64,000 bases of DNA from Terriglobus sp. RCC_193 (GTDB lineage Bacteria; Acidobacteriota; Terriglobia; Terriglobales; Acidobacteriaceae): positions 1,054,001 through 1,118,000 of the forward strand of contig NZ_JBFUPK010000001.1 of NCBI RefSeq assembly GCF_041355105.1. The letters are read 5' to 3'. The first letter of the stretch is position 1, and every line of letters starts with the position of its first letter. Below the pieces are notes generated by a model. The model had not been told where the DNA came from. It did not search any database and saw nothing but the letters and a program-made list of their open reading frames with translations. Of this stretch, positions 5,741 through 40,150 are shown in pieces. The translations under genes and the position numbers were made by a program.

Positions 5741-6012
5741 ACGTACGGCTCCCACGGTCAAAGACCGTCATCCTGAGCGAAACAAAGTGAAGCCGAAGGA
5801 CCTGCATTCCTCTCAACCCTCTACAACGCATCAGGAAACCCAAAAACGAACCAGCAGCCACAAAACCGGGTGCCCCAGGTTCGCGAAGCTAACCTGGGCA
5901 TCGCGTCAAAGACGCGATCAAACGACCGAAGGTCGTCTTCTTTGAGGGGCAGAGGCTTCAGCCCTGCCATAAAAAGCAGACAAGGAGAATGGGTCTTTAG
6001 CCCCAGAGGGAA
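5741..6012 (+). repeat. Hairpin-rich dispersed repeat, copy A
   Basis: The spacer between the M61 gene and nadK carries the repeat family. In order it holds: the cggtc-AAA-gaccg hairpin (5755-5767), the gtcatcctgagcgaa...ggacctgcattcc segment, the ccgggtgcc block, the CCAGGTT...AACCTGG stem (5876-5898), atcgcgtc-AAA-gacgcgat (5900-5918), acgacc-GAA-ggtcgt (5922-5936), and the ggcttcagccctgcc end block. I see no convincing gene in it. Confidence 0.85.
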
Positions 6013-29780: not shown

Positions 29781-30078
29781 ATCGCAGCGAAGCTCATACG
29801 GTCGTAGACCGTCATCTTGAGCGAACCAGCGAAGCTCATACGGTCGAAGACCGTCATCCTGACCAAACCAGCAAAGCTCCTACGGCCAAAGGCCGTCATT
29901 CTGAGCAAAGCGAAGAATCCCAACAAAGGCTAACTCCAGCAATACTGCCAAACGCTTTCAGCCAAAGAACCCAACACCAGCTTCGCAAAGCGAAGCTCAT
30001 ACGGTCGAAGACCGTCATCCTGACCGAAGCGAAGCGAAGCGAAGCGGAGCGGAAGGACCTGCATTCTTCTCTGTCCAC
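29781..30078 (+). repeat. Hairpin-rich dispersed repeat, copy G
   Basis: The spacer after the efflux terminator holds three cggtcg/cgaccg-type units (29798, 29838, 30001) and a cggcc-AAA-ggccg unit (29883). It also has the subfamily segment caacaaaggctaactccagc...cttcgcaaagcgaagc, which is close to copies H and I, and an expanded cgaagcgaagcgaagcgaag run near 30020. No gene is supported. Confidence 0.85.
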
Positions 30079-34745: not shown

Positions 34746-35597
34746 ATGTCCGATCCCACGCCCCAGCCTGAAGCCGCCACACACACCTTCCGGCTCACGC
34801 TGGCTTACGACGGTACAGATTTTTTCGGCTGGCAGATCCAGCCAGAACGCCGAACCATCCAGGGCACCCTCGCCAGAGTCATCCGCGAAACCATCGGCGA
34901 AGAGACCTTGCCCCAGGGCTCCGGTCGCACTGACACCGGCGTCCACGCCTTCGGTCAGACCGTCTCCCTCACCTTAACAGCCGACGTCCCCGCAGATCGC
35001 CTTCACCGCGCGTTGAACCGGCGGCTTCCCTCTGCCATCCGCATCCTCACCTGCGAAGCGGCACCTGGCTTCCACGCCCGCGCGGGGGTCCTCAACAAAA
35101 CCTATGAGTACCGCGTCTTCCCGCGCCGCACACCCGGCAGTCGCGAAGAACGCATCTGCCTGCCGCACATCGCGCGTTTCGCATGGGACTGCCGCTGGCC
35201 GCTGCAACTGGAACCCATGCAACAGGCCGCAACAGCACTCATCGGCACGCACGACTTCTCTTCCTTCGCCGCTCGCGACCCTGACCGCACGCGTCGTGCC
35301 GAAGAATCCGGCGAGCCGCTGAACAATATCCGCACCATCTTCGCCTCGGAATGGCTGCAACAAGACAACTTGCTCATCTACCGCGTCACCGGCACCGGCT
35401 TCCTGCATCACATGGTGCGCAACATCGTCGGCACCTGTGTTGAAATCGGCGCAAGCCGCATTCCCGCTGACAGCATCTCCGCCATCCTCGCCGCAAAGCA
35501 ACGTGGCGCCGCCGGAGTCACCGCACCGCCGCAGGGCCTGCACATGATGCAGGTGGTCTATCGCGATCATCCAACCACAGAGGGGGCCACCACATGA
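34746..35597 (+). CDS. truA: tRNA pseudouridine(38-40) synthase TruA
   Basis: A 283-residue enzyme from the ATG at 34746. The catalytic aspartate is Asp63 in GRTDTGVHA. Other TruA blocks are LAYDGTDFFGWQIQP, FHARAGVLNKTYEYRVF, IGTHDFSSFAA and GTGFLHHMVRNIVGTCVEIG. It modifies the anticodon stem of several tRNAs. Its stop overlaps the start of the peptidase gene (ATGA), opening a three-gene coupled run. Confidence 0.95.
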   Translation: MSDPTPQPEAATHTFRLTLAYDGTDFFGWQIQPERRTIQGTLARVIRETIGEETLPQGSGRTDTGVHAFGQTVSLTLTADVPADRLHRALNRRLPSAIRILTCEAAPGFHARAGVLNKTYEYRVFPRRTPGSREERICLPHIARFAWDCRWPLQLEPMQQAATALIGTHDFSSFAARDPDRTRRAEESGEPLNNIRTIFASEWLQQDNLLIYRVTGTGFLHHMVRNIVGTCVEIGASRIPADSISAILAAKQRGAAGVTAPPQGLHMMQVVYRDHPTTEGATT

Positions 35598-36853
35598 TTC
35601 TTCGCGACCGCGAACTCCTCCCCCTCGCCCGCATCGCGCAAATCGCGCAGGATCGCGCCGTGCATCGCGCCTTCGGCTGGTTCCATCTGCACGAACCGCG
35701 CATCCGCGCATGGCAGAAGGAGTGCGTTGCCATCCCCGCACCACCGTTTGGTGAAGCCACACGCGCCGCATGGTTCGTCGACCGCATGAACGAGCTCGGC
35801 CTCGCCAACGTCCACATCGACGAAGCAGGCAACGCGCTCGGTTTGCTCCACGAAAACGACGGCGCTTCCCCCGTCGTGCTGCTCTCAGCGCATCTCGACA
35901 CCGTCTTCGCCGCGGAAACCGAACTCGACATCCGCGAAGACGAATCGCTCCTCATCGGCCCCGGCATTTCGGACAACGGAGCAGGACTCGCCGCACTCCT
36001 CGCTATTGCCGCCGCCATGCGCCACGCGGACATCGACCCCGCCGCCAACATTCTCTTCGCCGCCAACACCGGCGAAGAAGCCGAGGGCGACCTCCGCGGC
36101 ATGCGTCATCTCTTCCACACGTCACCCTTCGCATCACGCATCTGTGGATCGCTCGCACTCGAAGGCGCGGGCAACGAAACTGTCGTCCCCCGAGCCCTTG
36201 GCAGCCGCCGCTTCCGTGTCGAAATCACCGGCCCCGGCGGCCACGCATGGACAGACTCCGCGCTGCCCAACCCCATCGTCATCCTCGCGCAGGCCATTAG
36301 CGAACTCGCCGTTCTGAAGCTTCCCGCACGCCCCCGCACCACGCTGAACATCGGCGAGATCCGCGGCGGCACATCGGTCACCTCCGTCCCGCAATCCGCC
36401 TCCGCCACCTTCGACATCCGCTCCACCGACGCCAGCCAGATCCTCTCGCTGGAGGTCCGCCTGTACCGCGCCGTCGAAGACGCCATGCTCTCCATCCCGC
36501 GCTCCCACCGCAACACCCTCAAAGCCGCCATCACACTCATCGGCGACCGCCCTGCCGGCGAACTCGCACCCAACTCGCGACTCCTCGCCAGCATCCACGC
36601 CGCCGACCGCCACCTGCGCCTCCGCACCGAAGAACGACTCGGCTCCACCGACGCCAACATTCCGCTCTCCCTCGGCCGCGAAGCAGTCGCCATCGGCGCG
36701 GGTGGCCTCGCCGGAGGCGTCCACACCACCAACGAATGGCACGACACCCGGGGCCGCGACCTCGCCCTCCGCCGAGTCCTTCTCGTTCTGCTCGACCTCT
36801 GCGGCTACGCCGGTACAAATCTCGCCGACTGCGACACGGAGACCCAGCCTTGA
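35594..36853 (+). CDS. M20 family metallopeptidase
   Basis: A 419-residue cytoplasmic-looking protein without a signal peptide. Zinc ligands are recognisable in LLSAHLDTVF, GPGISDNGAG and NTGEEAEGDL, with a late HTTNEWHDTRG block. The dimerisation domain lies at about residues 195-305 (RFRVEITGPGGHAWTD). The family includes PepT and carboxypeptidase G2-type enzymes that cut small peptides or amide bonds; the substrate is unknown. It overlaps truA upstream by four bases and the EamA gene downstream by four bases (TTGA). Confidence 0.9.
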   Translation: MILRDRELLPLARIAQIAQDRAVHRAFGWFHLHEPRIRAWQKECVAIPAPPFGEATRAAWFVDRMNELGLANVHIDEAGNALGLLHENDGASPVVLLSAHLDTVFAAETELDIREDESLLIGPGISDNGAGLAALLAIAAAMRHADIDPAANILFAANTGEEAEGDLRGMRHLFHTSPFASRICGSLALEGAGNETVVPRALGSRRFRVEITGPGGHAWTDSALPNPIVILAQAISELAVLKLPARPRTTLNIGEIRGGTSVTSVPQSASATFDIRSTDASQILSLEVRLYRAVEDAMLSIPRSHRNTLKAAITLIGDRPAGELAPNSRLLASIHAADRHLRLRTEERLGSTDANIPLSLGREAVAIGAGGLAGGVHTTNEWHDTRGRDLALRRVLLVLLDLCGYAGTNLADCDTETQP

Positions 36854-38076
36854 GCAGCGCTCGTCGCCAATCGCTGCTGGCCCACGGACTTTTGCTTGCA
36901 GTCGTCGCCGTCTGGGGAGCCACCTTTGGCATCGTCCACGACGCCTTGCGCGATTGCTCACCGCTCCTCTTCGTCCTCATCCGCATGGCACTCGCCTTCG
37001 CGGCACTGGCCATCTTTTACCGTCACGAATTCCGCCGGATGTCCCGCACCACCATCGCCGCCGGAGCCATCGCCGGATTCTTCCTCGCCACGGGCTACGC
37101 TCTGCAGACCGCGGGCCTTATGACCACCACGGCCACACACTCCGCCTTCCTCACCGGTCTCGTCGTAGTCATCGTCCCAATCCTCTGCCTCATCCCCGCC
37201 CTCCGCCCCACAAGCGAAGCACCTGCAACCAGAGACCGTCGCTCAAGCGAAGCTCAACCGACTGAAAACCGCCGCCCCCGCGAAGCTCAAACGACCGAAG
37301 GTCGTCATTCTGAGCGAAGCGAAGAATCCCAACAAAGGCTGACGCCAGCAATACTGCCAAACACTTTCAGCCAAAGAACCCACACACCAGCTTCGCAAAG
37401 CGAAGCACCTGCAACCCAAGACCGTCACTCCAGCGAAGCTCATACGGTCGAAGGTCGTCATCCTGAGCGAAGCGAAGGGGACCCGCATTCCCCTCACGCA
37501 ACTCCAACCTCCTGGGAAGCCGCAACACCCCTCCTCGGCGCATGCGGAGCCTTCATCGGCATCGTCCTTCTCACTACACCTGCAAACCTCCCGCTCACCG
37601 AGTTCACCCACGGCTTCCGCATCGGCGACATCCTCAGTCTCCTCTGCGCCTTCGCCTTCTCCGGCCATCTTCTCTCCCTCGCGCATCTCGCAAAGAAGAT
37701 CCCCACATCCCATCTCGCCACCCTGCAGATAGGCTTTGCCACCGTCTTCCTGGCCATCGTCACACCGCTCGTCGAACATCCCCATCTGCACTGGACCGGC
37801 TACCTCGTATTCGCCCTCCTGCTCTGTTCTTTGGTCGCCACGGCCGCAGCATTTTACATCCAGTCGTGGGCGCAGCAGCATCTCGCCGCCAGCCACACTG
37901 CATTACTCCTCGCACTCGAACCAGCCTTCGCTCTGCTGACCGCGCTGATATTTTTCGGAGAGCGACTTACCCTCCGCTCCGGCCTCGGCGCGACGCTCAT
38001 CCTCATCAGCCTCATCGCCAGCGAATTGCTGTCATCACAACCAGTCTCTGAGCAACCCGAAGCCAACGCTGCATAA
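36850..38076 (+). CDS. EamA/DMT superfamily transporter carrying an in-frame repeat insertion
   Basis: A 408-residue membrane protein from a TTG at 36850, overlapping the peptidase stop (TTGA). It has the two EamA halves with about ten helices: GLLLAVVAVWGATFGIVHDAL at the start, and AHLAASHTALLLALEPAFALLTALIFFGE-type features near the end. Residues about 122-221 are not transporter sequence. They are encoded by a copy of the dispersed repeat (RHSERSEESQQ, RHPERSEGDP) placed in frame between membrane helices 4 and 5. Without it the protein would be about 309 residues, the normal family length. Whether the product folds and transports anything is untested; the frame itself is intact. Confidence 0.88.
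   Translation: MSSARRQSLLAHGLLLAVVAVWGATFGIVHDALRDCSPLLFVLIRMALAFAALAIFYRHEFRRMSRTTIAAGAIAGFFLATGYALQTAGLMTTTATHSAFLTGLVVVIVPILCLIPALRPTSEAPATRDRRSSEAQPTENRRPREAQTTEGRHSERSEESQQRLTPAILPNTFSQRTHTPASQSEAPATQDRHSSEAHTVEGRHPERSEGDPHSPHATPTSWEAATPLLGACGAFIGIVLLTTPANLPLTEFTHGFRIGDILSLLCAFAFSGHLLSLAHLAKKIPTSHLATLQIGFATVFLAIVTPLVEHPHLHWTGYLVFALLLCSLVATAAAFYIQSWAQQHLAASHTALLLALEPAFALLTALIFFGERLTLRSGLGATLILISLIASELLSSQPVSEQPEANAA
37213..37509 (+). repeat. Hairpin-rich dispersed repeat, copy H, inside a coding region
   Basis: About 297 bp (99 codons) with the family's hallmarks: acgacc-GAA-ggtcgt at about 37290, gtcattctgagcgaagcgaa, the caacaaaggctgacgccagc subfamily segment, cttcgcaaagcgaagc, and gtcatcctgagcgaagcgaa followed by ggacccgcattcccctc. 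It has no stop codon in the transporter frame. Flanking codons for Pro-Thr-Ser occur at both ends. Confidence 0.88.
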
Positions 38077-38179: not shown

Positions 38180-39829
38180 ATGGCATCGAACCAGACCCTT
38201 TCAGAACGGATTCGCAACAACCGGCTTGCGACGTCGTTCGTGCTGCTCGGAACGCTCTCTGTCGGCGTCATCGCTGGCTCAGTGATGACCGGCACCGTTC
38301 ACGGCGCAATGCAGCAGAAGAAGAACGACACCTCCGACGCAACGCCGCTGAAAATCCCCGGCATGGTTGCGGAGCCGAATCAGTTCACCAAGATCGCCAA
38401 GGAAGTGGGTCCTGCGGTCGTCAACATCAATACCGAATCGCTGCCCAAGCAGGTCACCAATCCGCGCAACCGTCGCGGAAACCGCCGCGGCGGCCAGGGC
38501 GATGACGACCAGCAGCAGAACGACATGCAGGACTTCTTCAACCGCTTCTTCGGTGGCAACGGCCAGGGCCAGGGCGATGGTGGAGATGACGATGACGATC
38601 AGGCAGGCCCAATGGGTGCCGAACGCCATGCCCTCGGCTCCGGCTTCATCGTCGATTCGCACGGCTACATCGTCACGAACAACCATGTCGTCGATAAGGC
38701 CGACCGCATCTACGTCAAGCTGACCACCGACCCCGAAAACGACCCCGGCCACCCCGCCCGCGTCATCGGTGTCGACAAGGAAACCGACATCGCCGTCATC
38801 AAGATCGATGTCCCCAACTCCTTGCCCACCGTGAAGCTCGGCAACTCCGACGGCGCACAGGTCGGCGACTGGGTGCTCGCCATCGGCAGCCCCTTCTCCC
38901 TCTCGCAGACCGTCACCGCCGGCATCGTCTCCGCCAAAAACCGCACCGACCCATCCGGCGCAGGCAGCCAGTTCCAGAAGTTCATCCAGACCGACGCAGC
39001 CATCAATCCCGGCAACTCCGGCGGTCCGCTGCTTGACATGTCCGGCTCCGTCGTCGGTGTGAACACGGCCATTTACACGCAGTCGATGGGCTCCGTCGGT
39101 GTGGGCTTCGCGGTTCCGTCCAACACCGTCATCAACGTCTACAACAACCTCATCTCGCCAGAGCATAAGGTGGTTCGTGGCTCTATCGGCATCAGCTTCC
39201 AGCCTGGCATCTCCTCCGCGGTCAGCCGCATCTACGGCTTCTCCAAGGGCGGCGTCCTGGTCTCCACCGTCACCCCCGGTGGTCCGGCAGCCAAGGCTGG
39301 CATCAAGCCGCAGGACGTCATCACCGCCATCGACGGCACCCCGGTCAAGGACGGTGACGATCTCGTCTCCAACGTCTCGCCCCGCCACCCCGGCTCGACA
39401 GCACGTCTCACCTACCTGCGCGACGGTAAGGAAAGCAACGTCACCGTTACCATCGGCGACCGCGCCCAGACCACCGCAGCCATGGACGGCGACTCCGACG
39501 ACGACAGCAGCCCCAACGCCCCGCCCAAACCCAACGTCTCGCAGGACAAGTTCGGCATGTCCGTTCAGGCTGTGCCCGCTGAGATCCTCAGCCGCCTTAA
39601 GATCTCCGGCGGTGTCATGATCACCAACATCAAACCCGGCTCCTTCGCCGATGACCTGCCGCTGCAAAAGGGCGACATCATCACCGAAGTGAACCGCCAC
39701 GCCACCCCGACGCTACCGGAATTCGAAGCCACGATCGCAAAGCTGAAGTCTGGCGACGACGTGGTCTTCGTAGTCCGCCCGGTCAACAGCCGTAACGGCA
39801 GCAGCTTCGTCGGTGGCAAGCTCCCGTAA
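38180..39829 (+). CDS. DegP/HtrA-type periplasmic serine protease
   Basis: A 549-residue protein with an N-terminal hydrophobic anchor or signal (about residues 17-43). The catalytic triad is His169 (IVTNNHVVD), Asp203 (KETDIAVIK) and Ser280 (NPGNSGGPLL). Two PDZ domains follow (about residues 330-425, GVLVSTVTPGGPAAKAGIKPQD; and 445-540, GVMITNIKPGSFADDLPLQKGD). A Gly/Asp/Gln-rich stretch (about residues 95-145) precedes the protease domain. It degrades or refolds damaged envelope proteins. It is about 100 bases downstream of the EamA gene and ends at a clear terminator. Confidence 0.95.
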   Translation: MASNQTLSERIRNNRLATSFVLLGTLSVGVIAGSVMTGTVHGAMQQKKNDTSDATPLKIPGMVAEPNQFTKIAKEVGPAVVNINTESLPKQVTNPRNRRGNRRGGQGDDDQQQNDMQDFFNRFFGGNGQGQGDGGDDDDDQAGPMGAERHALGSGFIVDSHGYIVTNNHVVDKADRIYVKLTTDPENDPGHPARVIGVDKETDIAVIKIDVPNSLPTVKLGNSDGAQVGDWVLAIGSPFSLSQTVTAGIVSAKNRTDPSGAGSQFQKFIQTDAAINPGNSGGPLLDMSGSVVGVNTAIYTQSMGSVGVGFAVPSNTVINVYNNLISPEHKVVRGSIGISFQPGISSAVSRIYGFSKGGVLVSTVTPGGPAAKAGIKPQDVITAIDGTPVKDGDDLVSNVSPRHPGSTARLTYLRDGKESNVTVTIGDRAQTTAAMDGDSDDDSSPNAPPKPNVSQDKFGMSVQAVPAEILSRLKISGGVMITNIKPGSFADDLPLQKGDIITEVNRHATPTLPEFEATIAKLKSGDDVVFVVRPVNSRNGSSFVGGKLP

Positions 39830-39905: not shown

Positions 39906-40150
39906 CTTCACCAGCGAAGCTCGGACGGTCGAAAACCATCGCTTCAGCGAAGCTCATACGGCCAAAGGCCGTCATTCTGAGCAAAGCGAAGAATCCCAAC
40001 AAAGGCTGACGCCAGCAATACTGCCAAACACTTTCAGCCAAAGAACCCACACACCAGCTTCGCAAAGCGAAGCTCGTACGGTCGAAGACCGTCATCCTGA
40101 GCAAAGCGAAGCGCGGTGCCCCAGGTTCCCGAATCGAATCTGACCATCGC
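39906..40150 (+). repeat. Hairpin-rich dispersed repeat, copy I
   Basis: The spacer between the degP-like and permease genes holds one unit with cggcc-AAA-ggccg, the caacaaaggctgacgccagc segment, cttcgcaaagcgaagc, a cggtcg/cgaccg hairpin, and a decayed version of the gtgccccaggttc block. Positions 39970-40073 match 37303-37406 in copy H at 103 of 104 bases by eye. Confidence 0.86.

Follow-up and report, generated by a model that had tools for sequence, protein, structure and literature searches.

In-frame array of a dispersed palindromic repeat in an EamA transporter gene of Terriglobus and palindromes of several kinds in other conserved genes

A gene for an EamA-type transporter in Terriglobus sp. 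RCC_193 (Acidobacteriota) carries an array of a dispersed palindromic repeat that keeps the reading frame, and the same genome has in-frame hairpin repeats of several kinds in at least four housekeeping genes besides EamA, those for DNA polymerase I (PolA), MnmG, lysyl-tRNA synthetase (LysS) and QueA. The insertion of palindromes in frame, best known from Rickettsia, is thus extended to a phylum of soil bacteria, where five genes of a single genome, some of them for core enzymes, are affected and relatives have cases of their own. We are confident, short of certainty, in the account as a whole, namely that a REP-like array is tolerated in frame, that the process recurs in the genus and that two kinds of mover are at work. 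A sequence-only reading of the window, as we call the whole stretch of 64,000 nucleotides that was analysed, had described a dispersed repeat lying in frame in EamA, and this was confirmed, as residues 122-220 are open throughout and the exact 12-mer core GTCATYCTGARC of the repeat occurs 358 times in the genome (196 and 162 by strand; places are given for the first 100 of the 358) whereas the reversed pattern does not occur. That reading had treated EamA as a single case, which the four additional genes correct. The gene, its insert and its neighbours are located in the window as follows:

35594..36853, plus strand: upstream gene, putative M20-type peptidase as read from the sequence (ORF, gene order)
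36850..38076, plus strand: EamA/DMT transporter gene carrying the insert (ORF; Pfam PF00892; neighbour order kept in 9 relatives)
37213..37509, plus strand: repeat array, in frame, residues 122-220 (net 97 codons more than in the nearest relatives)
38180..39829, plus strand: downstream gene, putative HtrA-like protease as read from the sequence (ORF, gene order)

The EamA ORF (36850-38076) begins with a TTG start overlapping the stop codon of the upstream gene, encodes 408 amino acids and matches Pfam EamA (PF00892) in two stretches (E 3e-23; 83 bits against a cut-off of 28.2). It is flanked by the same two genes in the nine relatives compared and is therefore a positional orthologue. The insert (nt 37213-37509) contains no stop codon, encodes the peptides RHSERSEESQQ and RHPERSEGDP, and has a GRAVY of -1.71 as compared with 0.96 for the remaining residues of the protein. 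It had been placed in the loop between membrane helices 4 and 5, and hydropathy agrees, as the insert lies between a segment ending at residue 124 and one starting at residue 222, which are helices 4 and 5 by our own count. A protein search matched 39 of 61 genomes, its own genome among them, and 29 of the 38 matching relatives were aligned in 30 rows, T. roseus being present twice (L008 and L042) and row L023 missing part of the first half. The insert is missing from 29 of 29 aligned relatives, which have 24-31 residues at the loop as compared with 126 in the window protein; the 12 nearest rows, which stand for 11 genomes because of the two rows of T. roseus, all have 29 residues. The size given for the insert, about 99 codons covering residues 122-221, therefore holds as an open span of residues 122-220, whereas the net difference from the nearest relatives amounts to 97 codons, and the ancestral joint that had been proposed, LRPTSWEAATPLLG, is two residues shorter than the loop of the 12 nearest rows.

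Pro-Thr-Ser codons do occur on both sides of the insert as had been claimed (CCCACAAGC and CCAACCTCC), but the codons differ, so that a target duplication read from them was rejected, and at the junctions neither a direct repeat nor a target duplication at the DNA level was found. The right edge of the insert is similar to the 3' end of the repeat itself, and because of this and of the two residues by which the proposed joint is too short, the insertion joint cannot be fixed to the base. Three inverted pairs were reported at the insert and none of them abuts it. An Rfam scan of the window yielded no known RNAs at gathering scores. An AlphaFold model of the protein, obtained with two sequences and too poor (mean pLDDT 41.6) to give more than a hint, assigns the lowest confidence to the insert and shows it without helix.

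Within the insert, the following parts can be distinguished:

37213..37302, plus strand: tandem units of about 33 nt, each with GCGAAGC (37214, 37247, 37280)
37303..37330, plus strand: left REP core CGTC-ATTCTGAGCGAAGCGAAGAAT-CCC (tag, stem, tail)
37331..37406, plus strand: spacer ending in the hairpin GCTTCGCAAAGCGAAGC; lies within a 90-bp run from 37317 that is identical to a run from 39984
37456..37480, plus strand: right REP core CGTCATCCTGAGCGAAGCGAAGGGG

The typical element of about 200 bp is made up of a left core CGTC-ATTCTGAGCGAAGCGAAGAAT-CCC and a spacer with CTTCCAGCCAC, the hairpin GCTTCGC-AAA-GCGAAGC and the stem ACGGTC-GAA-GACCGT, and a right core CGTCATCCTGAGCGAAGCGAAG which continues into GGACCTGCATTCC and CAGGAAACCC. 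Most distances between left and right cores (n=45) are 109-119 or 140-176 bp. Among 92 cores of the left type, 86 have a CGTC (68) or TGTC (18) tag, 85 have the stem ATTCT/AGAAT, which starts with A-T and T-A, and the 3-nt tail is CCC in 88 and CCA in 1. The core is predicted to fold as DNA into 5 bp, a 2x2 internal loop and 2 bp, that is a stem with G.A mismatches closed by the 3-nt loop GAA, with an energy of -1.9 kcal/mol that is no better than that of shuffled sequences. The stem unit preceding the core folds well (z -3.2), and in 131 of 196 cases at least 5 of the 6 positions of its arms pair, the distinct stems numbering 47; when arms were re-dealt 200 times, a control that ignores kinship among copies, such pairing was reached by 90 cases on average and by 103 at most. 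The stem before the core thus keeps pairing while its sequence changes. Adjacent cores less than 220 bp apart form 60 direct and 9 inverted pairs, and inverted pairs were also seen in loci of the relatives G004 and G010. The motif GCGAAGC is an unusually stable DNA mini-hairpin. It forms the hairpin tip of the core CGTCATTCTGAGCGAAGCGAAGAAT and recurs through the array.

The DNA of the insert has at least 63 matches in its own genome at E<=0.001 (40 of 251 candidates scored), and exact 14-mers of the repeat were found 41 times as compared with 0 for the control. Copies were compared in the window and 81 further stretches of the same genome, G000 (L048-L128; 517,180 bases before removal of overlaps), where 4 of 196 cores are located inside called genes, a proportion which is no genome-wide rate because the stretches were chosen for holding the repeat, and one MnmG core falls outside this count owing to the choice of the start codon. 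Among 297 genomes of the phylum (its own included), 28 contain the strict 25-base core, 20 of these 28 belonging to the same family.

Passages of Di Nocera et al. (2013; PMC3733652) describe a CGTC superfamily of repeats, for which Proteobacteria, Chlorobi, Bacteroidetes, Spirochaetes and Thermotogae are named and to which RPE-6 and RPE-4 of R. conorii belong as CGTC-1 and CGTC-4. According to these passages, its members have an unpaired CGTC (with TGTC and CCTC variants) at one end, a stem of 8-9 bp that starts with A-T followed by T-A, a loop of 4-5 nt and a 3-nt tail that is mostly CCA; head-to-head dimers predominate and head-to-tail ones are negligible, there is no associated transposase, and intragenic units occur. 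The repeat in EamA resembles the CGTC-tagged REPs so described in its CGTC or TGTC tag, the A-T/T-A arms and the C-rich tail of three bases, as well as in having in-frame intragenic units (EamA, PolA, MnmG) and no adjacent transposase that could be found. It differs from the same published description by its predicted 3-nt loop, the G.A-mismatched stem, a CCC instead of a CCA tail, a mostly head-to-tail arrangement (60 direct, 9 inverted), composite elements of about 200 bp and a host phylum, Acidobacteria, outside the five named there. It is probably a new REP-like family that is allied to the CGTC superfamily and stands outside its four published families.

Rickettsia palindromic elements had been cited in the sequence-only reading as a parallel from an unrelated family and another phylum. 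The likeness is upheld, as palindromes lie in frame in conserved genes (EamA, PolA, MnmG, LysS, QueA) and are absent in orthologues, and so is the difference in phylum, the host being a Terriglobus of the Acidobacteriota. The word unrelated appears doubtful in view of the tag (86 of 92), the A-T/T-A start of the stem and the CCC tail (88 of 92), given that RPE-4 and RPE-6 are placed in the CGTC superfamily in the cited passages of PMC3733652; the loop is of another size and the dimers are oriented differently, and the likeness is judged from published descriptions. Unlike the elements of Rickettsia, those reported here occur in a soil acidobacterium, use several frames and include an array of 97 codons. 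Compared with intragenic MITEs as described in passages of PMC10969869, the repeat shares a non-autonomous nature and the capability of in-frame fusions, whereas the EamA insert has neither a target duplication nor closely bracketing inverted repeats. In the literature on Acidobacteriota, covered mostly as titles and as passages of PMC3733652, PMC6006769 and PMC10969869, no report of such inserts was found, and in literature text GTCATTCTGAGCG and three strings of the HSERSEES type occurred in no paper. REPs in frame are already published, and the EamA-type inserts extend them to the Acidobacteriota.

Besides the CGTC family, two other kinds of palindrome were found in frame in genes of this genome. 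DNA polymerase I (PolA, L123:6858-9908, identified by Pfam) contains an in-frame core of the CGTC family, HTNEVRHPERSAAELKHALERSEGD, and MnmG/GidA (L069:2826-5003, minus strand, identified by Pfam) contains the in-frame CGTC-family cores NAGPLRFAQDDGF and NAGPLRFARGHASTSLRSAQDDGF, so that this tRNA-modification enzyme has two in-frame antisense REP inserts. The second palindrome, GGTGCCCCA followed by a hairpin, occurs at 82 sites in the window and the fetched DNA (the reversed word at 1); 77 of the 82 have a stem of at least 7, and 6 are in called genes, of which 2 were left out for having no hairpin of at least 7 while the other 4 fall in LysS (2; L118:2176-4101), QueA (1; L123:840-2009) and PolA (1). 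A third kind, GGAAGGG..CTTCAG..CCG, was found at 9 sites as compared with 0 for the control, LysS containing one of the 9, and a close relation of it, GCTTTGAAGGGG..CTTCAG.., is located within PolA. In alignments with the relative G003, which has none of these inserts, the linker of G003 is 27 residues shorter in QueA and 48 in LysS, and its MnmG and PolA are shorter by 63 and 82 residues, respectively, over the span that was matched. The genome has no second full match to LysS, and therefore, judging from this gene content, the insert-bearing enzyme probably works, unless a class I LysRS exists. Nine large ORFs overlying arrays were compared with Pfam, which gave one MnmG, seven without a match and one below the cut-off, and those eight were not counted as genes; N-terminal overlaps (e.g. 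in L109, L073 and L091) were left out because the start is uncertain. According to passages of PMC3733652, many of the REPs that lie in frame within genes are found in genes of DNA synthesis and repair, that of DNA polymerase I included, and some in those of tRNA enzymes. The hits on PolA and tRNA enzymes match that list, in a sample that is small and biased.

The same linker regions are occupied by different pieces in relatives. PolA of G001 contains SSVILSEAKDPL and PolA of G004 contains AAVILSVAKDPAG, both being cores of the first family in another frame than in G000, and peptides of the second family (GAPRLASETWD, GAPYIRKADVWD and similar) are present in PolA of G011, in MnmG of G005, G010 and G011 (two linkers) and in QueA of G005 and G011. 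Inserts of relatives were read at the DNA level for PolA and MnmG and from protein alignments for QueA; the loci aligned were 16 of 19 for MnmG (without L166-L168), 13 of 19 for PolA (without L141, L143-L146 and L148) and 18 of 19 for both LysS and QueA. The repeat is read in sense phase 1 in EamA and PolA of G000, in sense phase 0 in PolA of both G001 and G004, and in antisense in MnmG. The use of three reading frames suggests that the inserts are tolerated insertions, and as both orientations are used as well, the repeats are not built to encode.

Its own genome possesses five Y1_Tnp genes, three of which reach the cut-off of 80 of the NCBIfam model for REP-associated tyrosine transposases, NF047646 (L045 110.6, L046 88.8 and L047 83.8 bits), whereas the other two score as IS200-type, one above and one below the cut-off. 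The three are arranged as follows:

L046:1411-2014 (G000:C2 about 1662332-1662935): ORF 1438-1980 for a REP-associated tyrosine transposase, lying between inverted copies of the GGTGCCCCA palindrome
L045:1408-1854, minus strand: REP-associated transposase, inverted palindromes of the GAAGGG..CTTCAG kind with 35-bp arms
L047:1378-1923, plus strand: REP-associated transposase, inverted palindromes of the GAAGGG..CTTCAG kind with 20-bp arms

On the two sides of L046 there are exact inverted copies, 32 bp long, of GGGTGCCCCACGTCTCGCTTTTGAGACGTGGG that abut or slightly overlap the ORF. The exact inverted copies around L045 measure 35 bp and are of a palindrome with GGAAGGGCAGGGCTTCAGCCCTGCCG, and L047 lies between exact inverted 20-bp arms, GCTTTGAAGGGGCCCGGCTT, one of which lies inside the 3' end of its ORF. 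L043 has 16-bp arms of another sequence and L044 no arms of 12 or more. LysS contains the 16-mer GGTGCCCCACGTCTCG of the L046 arms and a variant of the L045 palindrome, and PolA contains the 12-mer GCTTTGAAGGGG of the L047 arms. As kin of the palindromes in LysS and PolA bracket three transposase genes, these palindromes have likely movers in the same genome, the REP-associated tyrosine transposases, which would have made the inserts. The arrangement resembles that of RAYT and TIRYT genes with flanking palindromes, the REPtrons and TIRtrons of the cited passages of PMC3733652, and differs from what is described there in that palindrome kin lie in frame in LysS and PolA and that the GTAG tag does not occur in the sequences seen of the arms bracketing L045, L046 and L047. 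TIR-flanked transposases are reported in the same source for T. saanensis and three other Acidobacteria, and therefore such genes are not new to the phylum. In both LysS and PolA, kin of the GGTGCCCCA palindrome of L046 are found in frame. The word GGTGCCCCA is present in 6 of 34 Y1_Tnp loci, and on both sides in L046 only.

For the CGTC arrays, a different route is suggested by the relationships among copies in and around EamA:

39914..40112, plus strand: array with the greatest likeness to the insert (90% over 162 bp), 3' of the next gene
29787..30040, plus strand: second most similar array (86% over 165 bp)
36751..37950, no strand: block divergent from the relative G003 (L007), 61-78% identity in 150-bp bins inside and 83-97% outside, covering most of EamA

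The two arrays most similar to the insert are its neighbours, 2.7 and 7.4 kb away and on the same strand, and the array at 39.9 kb shares with it an identical run of 90 bp, whereas the next six arrays listed by likeness reach 76-78%. Among 54 multi-core arrays from the window and the fetched DNA, 7 have their best match within 20 kb, a number that 73 of 20000 permutations reach, and 47 do not, so that local copying explains only some of them. Local copying is therefore likely to be behind some CGTC arrays, and the sequence comparison suggests it for the array in EamA. Identity with G003 is 87-94% per 150-bp bin before 36.75 kb, 61-78% up to 37.95 kb and 94-97% just after, a profile by which the bulk of EamA belongs to a sharply bounded block that was recombined or replaced in one lineage. 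Since EamA lies inside this block, the allele may have been imported together with the array, or the array may have been copied in later.

That the array in EamA, or the CGTC units, were instead transposed by an enzyme acting in trans is a possibility we regard as somewhat doubtful. In its favour, 47 of 54 arrays have no best match within 20 kb, and the genome contains three REP-associated transposases bracketed by other palindromes. The CGTC core of EamA brackets none of L045, L046 and L047, as would be the case for RAYT-mobilised palindromes. A Y1 transposase adjoining a CGTC core was rejected as a candidate, as none of 34 Y1_Tnp loci (all 5 of its own genome and 29 of relatives, in which the matches listed outnumber the loci covered) has a CGTC core in flanks of up to 1.5 kb, which agrees with PMC3733652. 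For one Y1 gene (G000:C1:1548259-1548582), CGTC cores lie slightly beyond these flanks, at a distance of 2.1 kb on the near side and 1.6 kb past the gene, which speaks for transposition in trans, whereas the missing target duplication and the closest similarity of the insert to its physical neighbours speak against it.

The account that we prefer can be given in steps. A CGTC-tagged, REP-like and non-autonomous palindromic array would have entered EamA in a loop that tolerates extra residues, the insertion would have kept the frame by chance, and the insert would be translated as an unstructured, hydrophilic and presumably neutral loop. Throughout the genus, palindromes of several families would enter genes, and those in frame in loops and linkers (EamA, PolA, MnmG, LysS, QueA) would survive, a process that appears to recur in relatives (PolA, MnmG, QueA). 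Palindromes of the LysS/PolA type would be moved by REP-associated tyrosine transposases and the CGTC arrays by copying between neighbouring arrays together with a further long-range route.

It could also be that the EamA allele is dying, i.e. that the insert inactivates the gene and stops have yet to accumulate, which we judge unlikely. An insert of 97 residues in a membrane protein of about 310 residues is large, the 90-bp identity with the neighbouring array would allow it to be recent, dN/dS against relatives (0.14-0.26, with dS near saturation) is above that of two pairs of close relatives (0.036 and 0.067), and 24 of 199 residues that are invariant in four relatives are changed in G000. 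However, the frame of 408 codons is intact, lineage-specific replacements are not in excess (with T. roseus as outgroup, 31 unique residues in G000 and 32 in G003, that is no acceleration), neighbour order is kept, a GGAG precedes the overlapping start by our own reading, and comparable inserts are present in LysS, PolA, MnmG and QueA. On these grounds the view that the loop is permissive and the gene still functional-looking, which had been put forward earlier, appears to hold.

At the other extreme, the repeat might be domesticated, its encoded peptide being functional and selected, and that in-frame copies recur, both across five genes of this genome and in relatives at the same linkers, could be taken in this sense. 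We consider this very improbable, as the peptides differ and derive from three frames and both orientations, and as openness is a property of the repeat anywhere: a frame is open over 297 nt in 21 of 54 multi-core arrays (17% for mononucleotide shuffles), and 12 of 54 are open in the frame used in EamA. The repeat is thus mildly permissive of open frames wherever it is located. An assembly artefact that put an intergenic array inside the gene is highly improbable. Repeats are the usual cause of misjoins, but the array is not identical to any of the 53 other arrays compared (best 90%), the frame is kept, the contig has 2.05 Mb, the other 13 protein matches in its own genome, obtained from 30 scored candidates of 147, cover the repeat part and neither half of EamA, and four other genes present the same situation.

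These cases raise a wider reading that we offer tentatively, as quite possibly correct: in Terriglobus-like Acidobacteriota, several families of palindromes, some moved by their own REP-associated transposases, would keep invading coding sequences and, at sites shared between species, would lengthen linkers in core enzymes (DNA polymerase I, lysyl-tRNA synthetase, MnmG, QueA). Hairpin repeats would thus go on supplying new segments of proteins outside Rickettsia, and would lean to replication and tRNA genes as reported for other phyla. Since the same linkers are hit in different species and frames, this set permits a direct test of whether such inserts are tolerated passengers or raw material for proteins, and as this genome also has a candidate mover for the LysS/PolA palindromes, the path that leads from a transposase to a segment of protein is open to testing. 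There is also a practical warning, as linkers with RHSERSEES, VILSEAKDP, LRFAQDD, GAPHLDSEMWD or FSPSV in predicted proteins may be repeat DNA.

Minor observations concern the occurrence and orientation of the cores. A 36-base query found ten plasmid records at weak E-values (0.008-0.3), among them ones from Granulicella, Novosphingobium, Calothrix and Planktothrix, and the plasmids AP025021.1 and AP025020.1 (Calothrix) and AP017994.1 (Planktothrix) contain cores of 25-26 bases with 92-96% identity, likewise at weak E-values. Between positions 5766 and 43018 of the window, all 18 relaxed cores are on the plus strand, and a looser 14-mer occurs 19 times on the plus and 3 times on the minus strand. 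Where cores lie between co-directional genes in the window and the 81 stretches, 64 are oriented with and 31 against the direction of the genes.
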